Part shown: positions 21,634-31,927 of the stretch, in pieces
Layout: every line of letters begins with the position of its first letter
How positions within the stretch are numbered: the stretch's first letter is position 1
From: Acidimicrobiales bacterium
GTDB lineage: Bacteria > Actinomycetota > Acidimicrobiia > Acidimicrobiales > UBA8190
Length of the DNA stretch: 36,491 nucleotides
Assembly (NCBI GenBank): GCA_017882995.1
Contig: JADGOL010000056.1
Location: 1-36,491, forward strand
Reading direction: 5' to 3'
Program-made: the position numbers and the translations under genes
The notes under the pieces: generated by a model
Told to the model about the DNA's origin: nothing
What the model saw: the letters and a program-made list of their open reading frames with translations, nothing else
Database searches by the model: none

Positions 21634-22356
21634 TCAGGCGGGGCGACCGGCACTGGCCTCGTGGGCCCGGTAGGCCCACGCCCATTGAGCGGCTTCGTGG
21701 GCGATGGCGGGGTGGACCTGCCAGCGGACGAGCTGGAGCTCGACCTCGGGCCGGGTGTTGTCCGATGCGAGCAGGGCGAGAGCCAGGCGCCGGGCGTTGC
21801 GACGGGCTTCTTCGAGCGCCGGTGACGAACGCACCGGGGTCATCCACTGCGCGTGTCGGTCTTGGAGGGAGACGGGAAGGCGTTGGAGATGGCGGCGCGG
21901 CATGGGCGGTATCCGGCGTCGGACCGCCAACGTCGTCGGTCCCGCGGGTCTCGCCATCTCGAAGGTGACGCAACGGGCCAGGGCACGGCGGAACGGTGAT
22001 TGGCGTCCGGAGCGGTCACCGAGCCCGAGGGCGCGGGCCGTGTCGGCCCGGTCGAGGTCGAAACCGTCGGGGTTGTCGTCGAGCCCGGCCGCGAACCGTC
22101 TCATGAGCCAGGTGCAGGTCGGGCCCAGGATCCCCAACCAGAACGTCTCGACATAGAGCGACCGGGGGTCATATCCCAGACGGTCGATGATCGGGTCGGG
22201 CCACCCGATGATGCGGATGGGCTCCATCTCCGGGGTCGCCACCGCCACATCGTCGACGACGGTCACGCCGACGGCCTCGACGACAGGTTCGGGGACAGGT
22301 TCGGGGACACGGTGCAAGGTGCCGGGACGAACGGCGGGGACAGGGACGACGGACAT
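21634..22356 (-). CDS. Conserved actinobacterial protein of unknown function
   Basis: I recall similar sequences only as hypothetical proteins in actinobacteria. The N-terminal 40 residues are Val/Pro/Glu-rich and probably disordered. The core (about residues 50-170) has a distinctive pattern: YVETFWLGILGPTCTWLMRR, then LDRADTARALGLG, SPFRRALARC, and a basic block LAVRRRIPPMPRRHLQRLP. The middle looks like a small helical, possibly winged-helix, fold. There is no signal peptide and no catalytic motif. ATG 22356 follows GGAG by six bases. It is divergent from the DsbA-family gene across a 195-bp gap that holds a 12-bp tandem repeat. Confidence 0.65.
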   Translation of the reverse strand: MSVVPVPAVRPGTLHRVPEPVPEPVVEAVGVTVVDDVAVATPEMEPIRIIGWPDPIIDRLGYDPRSLYVETFWLGILGPTCTWLMRRFAAGLDDNPDGFDLDRADTARALGLGDRSGRQSPFRRALARCVTFEMARPAGPTTLAVRRRIPPMPRRHLQRLPVSLQDRHAQWMTPVRSSPALEEARRNARRLALALLASDNTRPEVELQLVRWQVHPAIAHEAAQWAWAYRAHEASAGRPA

Positions 22357-25498: not shown

Positions 25499-26533
25499 TC
25501 AGCGCGCTCCGGCTGCTTCGGCCTGGGCCCAGGTGTAGGTGTAGGTCGGGCTCCCCGTCATGAGCACGATGAGCGTGGCGTCACTCGTCCATGGTGCGTC
25601 GGACACCACCGTCGCCTCGGCCGCCCCCATGGCGAGGACACCGTGCGACGCGGCCACCTGGGACGCGTTGTACCGGAGGATGTTGTCGCGGTGCGCCCAG
25701 CACGAGCTCGGGGTGCTGGGAGTGCAGCCGAGGTTCCCGGACCCCGGTCCGTCGTCGTACATCCAGTTGTAGTTCGAGCCCAGCGGGCCCGCCGCCTCGG
25801 CCCAGTTCGAGGCCCAGCTCGTCACGGTGGACCCGGGTGGCACCGACACCGGGGTCGGGTCGGTGTTGGCCCCCGCCGCATTCTGGGCGTCGGCGTTGAG
25901 CGGCGCGACCATCCCGACGATGGGGGGCAGGCCCCGGTCGACGCGTTCGATGTCGGCCAGCACGAAGAGCTGTTCGCCCGGTGTGAGCGCGGCGAAGTTC
26001 GACGGGAGCACCATCGCGCCCAGACCTTCGTGGGCGCGCGCCGCAGTCGTCGCCTGAGTGGTGGCGGAGATGCACGGGGCTGACTGGTTGCCCGAGGTTC
26101 GGCACGACGAGGCGAAGTCCGGTGTCTCGGGGAAGTTCGCGGCCGGGTTGTTGGGCGGCAGGATCGGGTGCGAGGCCACCGGGATCACCGGCGGGATCGT
26201 CGGATGGGGGGCGGTCGGGTGAGGCGCCGGAGGGTGGGTGGTGGGGGATGCGACCGGCTGGGAAACGACGATGGGAGGCGGCGTCGTGGTGGTGACGGGC
26301 GGGGGAGCCGTGGTGGTGGGCGCCACCGCCTGAGGGTGGAGGAAGCCGATCGAGGGCCGCGACCCACCCGACCCCGCCGCCGACAGGGTGGCGGAACGGG
26401 CCGGCGCAGGTTCGATCGCGGTCAGGATCACCAGGGTCAGGGCCACCAGGGTGACTGCCCCGACCAGGGCGGACGTGCCCGCGACGGGCATGCGGCGGAG
26501 CAGGACGCGAGGTCGCGTCTCGAGGCTCGACAC
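25499..26533 (-). CDS. Secreted proline-rich protein with CAP-like C-terminal domain
   Basis: This 344-residue protein has a basic N-terminus and one hydrophobic segment (about 20-42) acting as signal peptide or anchor. A Pro/Thr/His-rich stalk (about 65-130) probably spans the wall. The C-terminal part contains FAALTPGEQLFVLADIERVD, LNADAQNAAGANTDPTP, WMYDDGPGSGNLGC and CWAHRDNIL. The last resembles the GHR-x-NIL segment of CAP/SCP (PR-1) proteins, and similar sequences in actinobacteria are usually annotated as CAP-domain or hypothetical. Two cysteine pairs may form disulfides. GTG 26533 is the start; no good ribosome binding site is visible. Function is unknown. Confidence 0.65.
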   Translation of the reverse strand: MSSLETRPRVLLRRMPVAGTSALVGAVTLVALTLVILTAIEPAPARSATLSAAGSGGSRPSIGFLHPQAVAPTTTAPPPVTTTTPPPIVVSQPVASPTTHPPAPHPTAPHPTIPPVIPVASHPILPPNNPAANFPETPDFASSCRTSGNQSAPCISATTQATTAARAHEGLGAMVLPSNFAALTPGEQLFVLADIERVDRGLPPIVGMVAPLNADAQNAAGANTDPTPVSVPPGSTVTSWASNWAEAAGPLGSNYNWMYDDGPGSGNLGCTPSTPSSCWAHRDNILRYNASQVAASHGVLAMGAAEATVVSDAPWTSDATLIVLMTGSPTYTYTWAQAEAAGAR

Positions 26534-26938: not shown

Positions 26939-27070
26939 TCGAATCTGTAGGTCAGCCTGCGGGAAGGGCCGCACGTCGAACGTGCACCACACCCAGGTCC
27001 GCGCCGCGGTGAGCGACCGGTGGGTGGAGCGGGGTCGATGTGGTCTCGCAGGGATCGGAGTACTGAGTTG

Positions 27071-28714
27071 ATGGAGGACGTCACGGGGGGGCAGGACGAG
27101 CCGAAGCGGCCCGTCGTGTCTCGTCGGCGCGGGCTCGGCAAGGGGCTCGGCGCCATCCTCCCCGGTCCCGAAACCGTCGACGAGCCTTCTCGACCTGACG
27201 AGCTCACCGGTCTGCCCAACCGGGCCGTCCTCGACGAGCAGTTCGCCGAGGCCGTGGCCCGTTGCCGCGAGGACGGTGCGTCGCTGGCGGTGCTCGTGGT
27301 CGCCCTGGACGGGTTCAGCGACGTGAACGAGCTCTACGGCCACAGCGTCGGCGACAACCTCCTTCACGACGCGGCGGCTCGGCTGTCGGCGGCGCGACGG
27401 CGGTCCGACACCGTGGCACGGTTCGCCGGCGACGAGTTCGTGCTGGTGTGTCCGTATGTGGCGTCGTCGGATCTCGCCTGTCAGATGGCGGGGCGGATCC
27501 TCGAAGACCTGAGCCGACCGACGACGGTCGACAAGGCTGAGCTCCAGTTGTCGGCGAGCATCGGCGTCGTGGTCACCTCGCCGAGAGACTCTCAAGGTGG
27601 CGCCCCGACGCTCGAGACCCTTCTGGGCGACGCGTCGCTCGCCATGAGGCGGGCCAAGGACGAGGGCGGGGCGTCGTGGAAGTTGTTCGACCCCTCGATG
27701 CGCGAAGACGTCGTCGTCCGCTCCCAGAACCGCCAGGACCTGCGCGCCGCGCTCGAGGAGGACGGCCTCGTCCTCGAGTACGAGGACATCGTCGACCTGG
27801 ACACCGGAGCGGCGATCAGTGAGTCGGCGATCCTGGTGTGGAGCCAACCCGGGCCCGAGGTGGATCACCCCCAGGCGCCTCTCGACCTGGTCGACGAAGC
27901 GGGGCTGGCGGTGCCGATCGGTCGGTGGGTGCTGGACCAGGCTCTCTCGGATCTGAGCGTGCGCCATGGGGGGTCGAGCCTGCCGGCGCACTTCCGGGTC
28001 TGGGTGAAGGTGGCACCGTCATTGGTGGCCGATCCCGCGCTGGTCGCCATGATCGACGAGCTCACCACCACCCACGGCCTCTCTCCGTCGGTCCTGGGGA
28101 TCGACATACGCGAGCCCTCGGCGGCGGCGCTGGTATCCACCGAGTCGAACCTGCGCGAACTTCACGAACGCGACGTCGTGGTGGCACTCGACGACTTCGG
28201 AGCAGGTCAGTCGAATCTGGGGCTGCTGCAGCGGTTGCCGATCTCGGGCCTCAAGCTTGCGCCGGATCTGGTGGCCGCGCTCGGCGACGACGCCGGAACC
28301 CCCGACGCCGGTGTTCCGGCCGGGGCCGATACCGAGCCGGGCGCCACCCACCCGGCCGCGCTCGAAGCCGACACCGATGCCCGTGCCCAGACCTTGAGCC
28401 GCGAAGCCGCCGCTCTCGTGCGCGGTCTGATCGAGCTCGGCCGGGCGCTCGAGCTCACCGTCGTGGCCCAGGGTGTCGAGTCCGAGACCCAAGCCGCCGC
28501 GTTGCGGGCGCTCGGCTGTGAGTACGCGCAGGGGCCGTTCCTCGTCGGCCACGACGTCGTCGCCGTCCTCGGTGACTTCTCCGACCCCGAACCCGAGGCC
28601 GACCCCGAACCCGAGGCCGACCCCGAACCCGAGGCCGACCCCGAACCCGAGGCCATACCGGCTCCGGCGGTGCCTGCCGAGTCGCTCTGGGCGCCGGGGA
28701 CGCTGACCAGCTGA
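27071..28714 (+). CDS. GGDEF plus degenerate EAL protein with ParB-like N-terminal peptide
   Basis: This 547-residue signalling protein has three notable parts. Residues 17-32 read SRRRGLGKGLGAILPG, very like the N-terminal ParA-contact peptide of ParB proteins. Residues about 40-210 are a GGDEF domain with AGDEF at 119-123 and an intact I-site R110-x2-D113, so diguanylate cyclase activity is possible. Residues about 220-500 are an EAL-type domain that has lost catalytic residues: ESA (251-253) for EAL, LKLA for LKID and QGVE for EGVE. An Ala/Asp-rich insert of about 40 residues follows position 400. The tail is a DPEPEA repeat. ATG 27071 or 27038 is the start. Confidence 0.88.
   Translation: MEDVTGGQDEPKRPVVSRRRGLGKGLGAILPGPETVDEPSRPDELTGLPNRAVLDEQFAEAVARCREDGASLAVLVVALDGFSDVNELYGHSVGDNLLHDAAARLSAARRRSDTVARFAGDEFVLVCPYVASSDLACQMAGRILEDLSRPTTVDKAELQLSASIGVVVTSPRDSQGGAPTLETLLGDASLAMRRAKDEGGASWKLFDPSMREDVVVRSQNRQDLRAALEEDGLVLEYEDIVDLDTGAAISESAILVWSQPGPEVDHPQAPLDLVDEAGLAVPIGRWVLDQALSDLSVRHGGSSLPAHFRVWVKVAPSLVADPALVAMIDELTTTHGLSPSVLGIDIREPSAAALVSTESNLRELHERDVVVALDDFGAGQSNLGLLQRLPISGLKLAPDLVAALGDDAGTPDAGVPAGADTEPGATHPAALEADTDARAQTLSREAAALVRGLIELGRALELTVVAQGVESETQAAALRALGCEYAQGPFLVGHDVVAVLGDFSDPEPEADPEPEADPEPEADPEPEAIPAPAVPAESLWAPGTLTS
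28583..28654 (+). repeat. Four perfect 18-bp repeats coding for DPEPEA
   Basis: The unit GACCCCGAACCCGAGGCC is repeated four times without error in frame near the 3' end of the GGDEF gene. It encodes an acidic Asp-Pro-Glu tail. Confidence 0.97.
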
Positions 28715-30638: not shown

Positions 30639-30739
30639 CCGACAAGCACTCCCCCCGGGAATGTTGACCCCACTGGTAGGGTTTAAGGGGCAGGCGGCGA
30701 GGTCGTGTCGCCGACGCAACCGGGAAGGTCGTGAACGTC

Positions 30740-31927
30740 GTGGCCAGTGCGAGAGAGTTGTTGACCCAGGCCAAGTCGGCTATCCGCGAGGCCCAGGCCG
30801 ACGAGGTCCAGCCGCGCCTCGACGAGGACGGGGTCGTGTGGCTCGATGTGCGAGAGGCCGACGAATACGAACAGGGAGCCATCCCCGGAGCGCTGCACCT
30901 TCCCCGGGGCCATCTCGAATTCCAGGTCGAGGGCCGGATCCCCGACAAGTCGGCCCCCGTCGTCGTGTACTGCGCGGGCGGCGTGCGGTCGGCGTTCGCG
31001 GCGAAGACCATGGCCGACCTCGGGTACACCGACGTGGTGTCGCTCGTGGGCGGGTTCAACCGCTGGAAGGACGAGGGCCGTCCCTGGAAGACCCCGGAGA
31101 CCCTCACGCCCGAGCAGCGCAACCGCTACCAGCGCCACCTCCTCGTCTCCGAGGTGGGGGAGGAGGGTCAGCTCAAGCTGCTCGACTCCCGGGTCCTGCT
31201 CCTCGGTGCGGGGGGACTGGGCTCTCCCGCCGCGCTCTACCTGGCCGCGGCCGGGGTGGGCACCATCGGCATCATCGACATGGACGTGGTCGACGCCTCG
31301 AACCTCCAGCGCCAGATCCTGCATTCCATGGACCGCATCGGCGAGCGCAAGGTCGACTCGGCCAAGAAGACGCTCACCGCGCTCAACCCCGACGTCGACG
31401 TCGTCACCTACGACGTGCGTCTCGGCGCGGACAACATCCTCGACATCATCGACGGGTACGACCTCATCGTCGACGGCACCGACAACTTCCCGACGCGCTA
31501 TCTCGTCAACGACGCGTCGCTGCTCAAGCGCATCCCGGTCATCCACGGCTCGATCTTCCGCTTCGAGGGTCAGGCCACGGTGTTCGACCCCTACAACGGG
31601 CCCTGCTACCGGTGCATGATCCCCGAGCCGCCGCCCGCCGAGCTGGCGCCGTCGTGCGCCGAGGCGGGTGTGCTCGGCGTGCTGCCCGGCATCATCGGGT
31701 CGATCCAGGCCGTCGAAGCCATCAAGATGCTGCTACGCATCGGCGACCCCCTCGTCGGACGGCTGCTCGCCTACGACGCACTCGAGGAGTCCTTCCGGAC
31801 CTTCAAGGTGCGGCGTGACCCGCAGTGCCCGGCGTGCGGGGAGAACGCCGCTCCCATCGTCATCGCCGAGTACGACGACCTGTGCATGCCCCACGCGCTG
31901 GCGTCGTCGGGGACCACACCGGCCTGA
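30740..31927 (+). CDS. moeB: Rhodanese-ThiF fusion, MoeB/MoeZ-type adenylyltransferase-sulfurtransferase
   Basis: This E1-like enzyme adenylates the C-terminal Gly-Gly of a ubiquitin-like sulfur carrier (MoaD, ThiS or CysO type) and supplies sulfur. Residues about 15-120 are a rhodanese domain with Cys78 in VVVYCAGGVRS. Residues about 122-395 are the ThiF/MoeB domain: GAGGLGSPAALYL (156-168), NLQRQILH, DGTDNFPTRYLVND, and zinc cysteines C289, C292, C363 and C366. MoeZ-type proteins have the reverse domain order. GTG 30740 is preferred since GGGAAGG sits 11 bases upstream; GTG 30731 is too close to it. The sulfur-carrier partner is not in the window. Confidence 0.88.
   Translation: MASARELLTQAKSAIREAQADEVQPRLDEDGVVWLDVREADEYEQGAIPGALHLPRGHLEFQVEGRIPDKSAPVVVYCAGGVRSAFAAKTMADLGYTDVVSLVGGFNRWKDEGRPWKTPETLTPEQRNRYQRHLLVSEVGEEGQLKLLDSRVLLLGAGGLGSPAALYLAAAGVGTIGIIDMDVVDASNLQRQILHSMDRIGERKVDSAKKTLTALNPDVDVVTYDVRLGADNILDIIDGYDLIVDGTDNFPTRYLVNDASLLKRIPVIHGSIFRFEGQATVFDPYNGPCYRCMIPEPPPAELAPSCAEAGVLGVLPGIIGSIQAVEAIKMLLRIGDPLVGRLLAYDALEESFRTFKVRRDPQCPACGENAAPIVIAEYDDLCMPHALASSGTTPA

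Follow-up and report, generated by a model that had tools for sequence, protein, structure and literature searches.

A ParB-like peptide at the N-terminus of a degenerate GGDEF-EAL protein suggests a candidate ParA adaptor in one family of Acidimicrobiales

We describe a protein encoded at 27068..28714 (+) of a window of 36,491 nucleotides (the whole stretch analysed, from contig JADGOL010000056.1 of an Acidimicrobiales bacterium), in which a peptide closely resembling the ParA-binding N-terminus of ParB precedes a GGDEF and a degenerate EAL domain. Judged from an evidence base of sequences, mostly fragmented draft assemblies with six genomes carrying the gene, the peptide is real, translated and under purifying selection, and it probably functions as a ParA-interaction element, carried by a protein without catalytic activity. 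The best reading is that of a non-enzymatic adaptor that would bind ParA through a ParB-type tag, possibly under the control of c-di-GMP; ParA binding is itself what we infer from the established biochemistry of ParB.

Results

The N-terminus matches the ParA-binding peptide of ParB

The peptide, SRRRGLGKGLGAILPG, spans residues 17-32 counted from the ATG (27119..27166, +) and was delimited by its score against a ParB profile and by comparison of six orthologues. Against a profile built from 30 distinct ParB peptides it scores 39.9 bits, where ParB itself has a median of 43.3 and the best of 5,000 shuffles of the window protein reaches 14.0. This bears out the match to ParB proposed in the preliminary description, and a chance motif is ruled out by the shuffles and by the conservation described below. 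ParB from this genome family starts MARRSGLGKGLGALIPTE; the comparison uses relatives because a contig edge truncates the window genome's own ParB.

The core LGKGLGAIL (27134..27160, +) contains L22, K24, L26, I29 and L30, the equivalents of L11, R13, L15, L18 and I19 of Myxococcus xanthus ParB. In that protein L11, R/K13, L15, L18 and I19 were shown to matter for ParA binding or activation, R13 is in contact with a conserved Tyr/acidic patch, ATPase stimulation requires it, and the position is a Lys in about half of the chromosomal ParBs (PMC12462528). The last two hydrophobic residues are swapped, IL in the peptide and LI in ParB, and the IL order is family-specific. The peptide region is basic (SRRRGLGK), disordered and attached to an unrelated folded domain: in the AlphaFold model residues 1-37 have a pLDDT below 50, as a predicted disordered tail, and the folded body begins after about residue 43. 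As the preliminary description also held, no ParB or HTH domain follows, since Pfam gives no match to either at E<=1; apart from the GGDEF and EAL families it finds on the window protein a single weak match to low complexity.

The peptide is translated from a conserved TTG start

Counted from the ATG, the open reading frame covers 27071-28714 (+) and encodes 547 aa. The location given for it earlier stands, but the best-supported start is the TTG at 27068, one codon before the ATG at 27071. This TTG is common to all three full-length orthologues and the ATG is absent in two of them (in genomes G001 and G008); because these two keep the TTG with a GGAG 7 bases upstream (GGATCGGAG-N7-TTG), the start is best placed at 27068. 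In the window the GGAG, a likely Shine-Dalgarno sequence, lies at 27057..27060 (+), 7 nt before the TTG. On inspection, the stretch that joins the peptide to the GGDEF domain contains no in-frame ATG, GTG or TTG, so the peptide must be translated for the GGDEF domain to be intact. A start 3' of the peptide, which the preliminary description had named as a possible objection, is thereby ruled out: it would cut into the GGDEF domain, and it is the upstream TTG and Shine-Dalgarno sequence that are conserved.

Both domains are predicted to be non-catalytic

The GGDEF domain (27197..27670, +; residues 43-200; Pfam E 9e-37) is modelled with high confidence. The EAL domain (27734..28543, +; residues 222-491; Pfam E 7e-39) is degenerate and is interrupted at about 408-446 by an insert that is acidic and rich in Ala and Pro. 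The AlphaFold model, computed with 23 sequences, has a mean pLDDT of 81, with folded GGDEF and EAL domains and a disordered acidic C-terminus. This last includes a low-complexity tail of four DPEPEA repeats (28583..28654, +). The four repeats are perfect, and the corresponding position in the G008 orthologue is occupied by another repeat, EPSHEPAS, such that the acidic tail is kept between the two proteins and its sequence is not.

The signature of the GGDEF domain is AGDEF (27425-27439, +) in the window genome, G001 and G008, GGDEF in G014, and GDQF and GDVF in G012 and G006. A further change lies at Ala78 (27302..27304, +), the alignment column of the conserved metal-binding Asp, which is nearly invariant across the 22 other homologues. 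The six peptide-bearing orthologues have Ala (three) or Gly (three) at this position, and all seven aligned non-peptide homologues keep the Asp. The guanine-site residues Asn86 and Asp95 are kept. In the EAL domain the alignment to 5m3c and homologues reveals that the catalytic Glu is replaced by Ser252, an Asp by Ala397 and a further Glu by Gln467, and the DDFG motif and Lys395 remain. Taking the roles of these residues to be those generally assumed for GGDEF and EAL enzymes, we predict that neither domain is catalytic. The view of the protein as a GGDEF domain followed by a degenerate EAL domain thus holds for the EAL half, whereas the GGDEF domain, which was not called degenerate, has lost its metal-binding Asp in six of six orthologues. 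An RxxD motif of the inhibitory-site type (RRSD, residues 110-113; 27398..27409, +) stands five residues before the signature and is kept in all six (RRSD, RKSD, RRSD, RSSD, RRGD, RAGD); because RxxD is common in the ordinary GGDEF proteins of this group, its presence argues only weakly that c-di-GMP is bound.

The peptide is conserved in six syntenic orthologues of one family

The gene was found in six sampled genomes of one bacterial family. The window genome, G001 (70% identity where aligned) and G008 (60%) encode GGDEF-EAL proteins, and G014, G012 and G006, which belong to another genus of the family, encode proteins with the GGDEF domain only. The six are positional orthologues, as all lie at the same locus, with genes for a methionine synthase, an aminopeptidase, an ACT-type protein, a DPRSxYVExFWL protein, the peptide gene, a rhodanese/MoeB protein and a methylmalonyl-CoA mutase; the names were read from the sequences, and completeness of the locus varies at contig ends. 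Two neighbours help to recognise it. The DPRSLYVETFWLGILGPTCTW protein (21634..22224, -; the core of a longer minus-strand ORF) was found in 17 of 17 family genomes and serves as a marker for finding the locus elsewhere. The rhodanese/MoeB-ThiF-type protein (30731..31927, +) flanks the window, G001, G008 and G012 loci and also loci without the peptide gene. In seven other genomes of the family the same neighbours are present at the locus and the peptide gene is absent, so the gene is dispensable. A Pro/Thr-rich protein is encoded upstream of the gene (25499-26533, -) and at the same place in G001 and G008, and was not seen in the other family loci.

Doubts that homologues might lack the Gly-Leu-Gly and the basic residues are settled by this comparison: all six orthologues retain them, together with the hydrophobic residues. 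Between the window and G008 the 16 peptide codons differ by 11 synonymous and 7 non-synonymous changes (pS 0.71, pN 0.22), K-to-R is the sole change within the core RGLG[KR]GLGAIL, and the linker behind the peptide takes non-synonymous change freely. The GGDEF-only members, of genus g6, keep the peptide in a protein whose remainder has strongly diverged.

Outside the family the combination has found no further support. The six proteins rank at the top of 397 genomes of the order when searched with a GGDEF-type peptide profile, a rank they hold by construction since the profile was built from them, and the other matches opened in this order-wide search included no further GGDEF case. In a phylum-wide sample (397 genomes) 29 other matches were opened. 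Of these, 27 satisfied simple criteria for ParB, one is recognisably a ParB in sequence but falls short on a single criterion, and one had no readable motif. The search for the pattern together with GGDEF, suggested in the preliminary description, therefore yielded no GGDEF protein with the peptide outside the family among the matches opened in either sample, and we reject a wide actinobacterial spread: the other matches opened were ParB, a second family or unclear low-scoring frames. Weak matches at profile positions 4-13 were discarded; the one inspected (L221) resembles an in-frame translation of a tRNA sequence. A scan of the genome collection with the whole protein returned generic GGDEF-EAL homologues only (21-38% identity), with no peptide in the DNA examined.

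A second, unrelated family carries a ParB-like peptide

Profile searches indicate that the peptide is not restricted to the GGDEF fusion. A second, unrelated family of proteins of about 260-300 aa, without a Pfam domain above cut-off, also has a ParB-like N-terminal peptide (RRGLGRGL-A-[IL][ILF] or similar, for example MSAAQKRGLGRGLAAILP). Members are encoded at L255:9169-9960 (-), L256:59-886 (+) and L257:7569-8477 (-), in L301 and L303 (G159:C24:110665-111519 and G332:C195:9391-10221), and in L385-L390. A five-member profile matches 28 of the 397 genomes of the order, in several families, and none in the family of the window. The peptide is the most conserved segment among the five aligned members and lies near the N-terminus in 11 of 20 matches opened; one large sub-clade appears to be without a recognisable peptide. 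The existence of this independent family supports the idea of the ParB tag as a reusable module. One member (L399, G021:C5:53272-54102) has apparently two tandem ParB-like stretches (SGLGKGLAAIL...RRGGLASLIPEAS). In genome G028 a second-family member has a ParA-family gene (L255:11231-12034, +; 267 aa) two genes away. A general linkage of this family to ParA was considered and rejected, given that the pocket of the G028 ParA has diverged and that two other loci have no ParA nearby.

The chromosomal ParA is the more likely partner

No ParA gene was seen beside the peptide gene in the window or the orthologue loci, and parA/parB are not near. Two ParA proteins were compared in related genomes. 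In the ParA encoded with parAB in G001, G008 and G014 the pocket for ParB is kept at all ten positions (Y, D, D, I, E, L, L, V/I, L, L), with some conservative replacements. In the second ParA of the same genomes four of the ten (Y81, E117, L187 and L192) are replaced, the residues there being H, H, D and A. As the pocket is kept in the former and diverged in the latter, the chromosomal, parAB-encoded ParA appears the more likely partner. The pocket was checked in relatives only because the window genome's own assembly (88% complete) contains no recognisable chromosomal ParA. The second ParA is an orphan of about 258 aa with a KGGVAKTT Walker A motif (L347-L350, in G008, G001, G014 and G012); what flanks it varies from one genus to another, and visual inspection of the neighbourhood did not reveal scpA/scpB.

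Discussion

A proposed tag for ParA on a regulatory body

The mechanism that we favour would have the disordered tail dock on ParA, so that the tag would tether the protein to ParA on the nucleoid or else stimulate ATP hydrolysis by ParA. The GGDEF body would act as a dimerisation and regulatory cargo, not as an enzyme. Its dimerisation, possibly by c-di-GMP at the retained RxxD, could juxtapose two peptides, and the interaction with ParA would thereby become signal-dependent. Strong activation of ParA by ParB involves two peptides brought together by clamp closure (PMC12462528), and since ParB needs paired peptides, the crosslinking of two GGDEF domains by c-di-GMP would be an attractive switch. 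In its most explicit form the protein would be a c-di-GMP-gated counterpart of the ParB clamp, in which an RxxD crosslink pairs peptides that bind or activate the chromosomal ParA. We regard this form as tentative and rather unlikely, and both the gating and the biological output are speculative; if true, a second messenger would directly control a chromosome-segregation or cargo-positioning ATPase.

Other explanations differ in the step that they question. That the peptide is a functionless remnant, left when the gene fused to the 5' end of parB, is disfavoured, and in our view highly improbable: it accounts for the close similarity to the N-terminus of the same-family ParB, but not for a core that is invariant across six diverged orthologues despite synonymous changes while the flanking linker changes freely. 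It is also improbable that ParA localises an active diguanylate cyclase or phosphodiesterase that makes a local c-di-GMP pool. The AGDEF or GGDEF signatures are intact in four of six orthologues, and Asn86, Asp95, DDFG and Lys395 are kept, yet the same proteins have all replaced the metal-binding Asp that the seven non-peptide homologues keep, the EAL residues Glu, Asp and Glu have become Ser, Ala and Gln, and two GGDEF-only members have GDQF or GDVF.

Granted a functional peptide on a non-catalytic protein, its target could be another one: the second ParA, a Mrp/MinD-like ATPase, nucleic acid or membrane. The basic, glycine and leucine character of the peptide could suffice for such binding, relatives encode the second ParA and further P-loop ATPases, and, according to the available text of PMC10241942, the partners of this ATPase family generally engage it by N-termini that are basic and disordered. 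We nevertheless consider this unlikely, as conservation tracks the ParB pattern residue by residue, beyond charge, and four of the ten pocket residues are changed in the second ParA. If the target is instead the groove of the chromosomal ParA, the protein might compete with ParB for it, restraining positioning as a segregation regulator tuned by the GGDEF body. The peptide matches that of the same-family ParB itself, and a motif in common with ParB would lead to competition for a single site in a ParA with an intact pocket; ParB, however, is concentrated locally at parS and hard to outcompete, which makes this reading possible but doubtful. Its binding step is that of the adaptor that we prefer and the outcome alone differs; sequence alone accommodates positioning of the protein, stimulation of ParA and competition with ParB, and does not separate the three.

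ParA-type ATPases place chromosomes, plasmids and protein cargos in bacteria, and c-di-GMP governs bacterial lifestyle and cell-cycle decisions. The comparisons made here suggest an undescribed link, in a small group of related bacteria, between the signalling molecule and the machinery that positions DNA and cargo. If this holds, the access of a second messenger to a segregation ATPase becomes a testable question. The second unrelated family in the order suggests that the ParB tag was reused more than once as an address label for ParA, and that motif searches for it will reveal further partners.

Comparison with known systems

PopA is a degenerate GGDEF receptor of c-di-GMP that has lost a catalytic residue and retained an RxxD-type site. 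The window protein resembles it, to judge by its residues, in having a GGDEF fold with the catalytic residue lost and an RxxD-type site kept; we know of no ParA peptide in degenerate GGDEF receptors of this type. The nearest GGDEF/EAL homologues in the same genome family are REC-GGDEF-EAL proteins (L085-L092; 44-48% identity), which differ in having a receiver domain in place of the peptide and in keeping the GGDEF catalytic Asp. With ParB/Spo0J the protein shares the RxGLG[KR]GLxA[IL][IL]P motif, a disordered N-terminal tail and the equivalents of L11/R13/L15/L18/I19 (PMC12462528). Unlike ParB, it has neither a ParB/Srx CTPase (CTP-binding) domain nor a parS-binding HTH, its peptide begins at about residue 17 instead of residue 2, and it reads AIL where ParB reads ALI.

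Proteins of c-di-GMP signalling have been connected to cell organisation before, with PdeB linked to the polar landmark HubP in Shewanella (PMC9061725) and CdbA to chromosome organisation in Myxococcus (PMC7156744). PdeB has phosphodiesterase activity and CdbA binds DNA; the available text of those papers describes neither with a ParB-type peptide. Among open-access full texts we found no description of a GGDEF protein with a ParB-type peptide, in agreement with the earlier statement that no case was known, nor of a direct bridge from c-di-GMP to ParA by such a tag. Modular N-terminal activating peptides are a precedent for partners of ParA/MinD on diverse domains, and the available parts of PMC7993993 and PMC10241942 name no GGDEF case among them. 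As described there, PomX, TlpT, McdB, MinE and ParG are similar to the window protein in carrying a short basic N-terminal peptide on an unrelated domain; they differ in that their peptides serve their own dedicated ATPases and are described by charge, not as copies of the ParB consensus. Tags for ParA on non-ParB domains are thus known from PomX, TlpT and McdB, and their presence on a c-di-GMP domain appears to be new.
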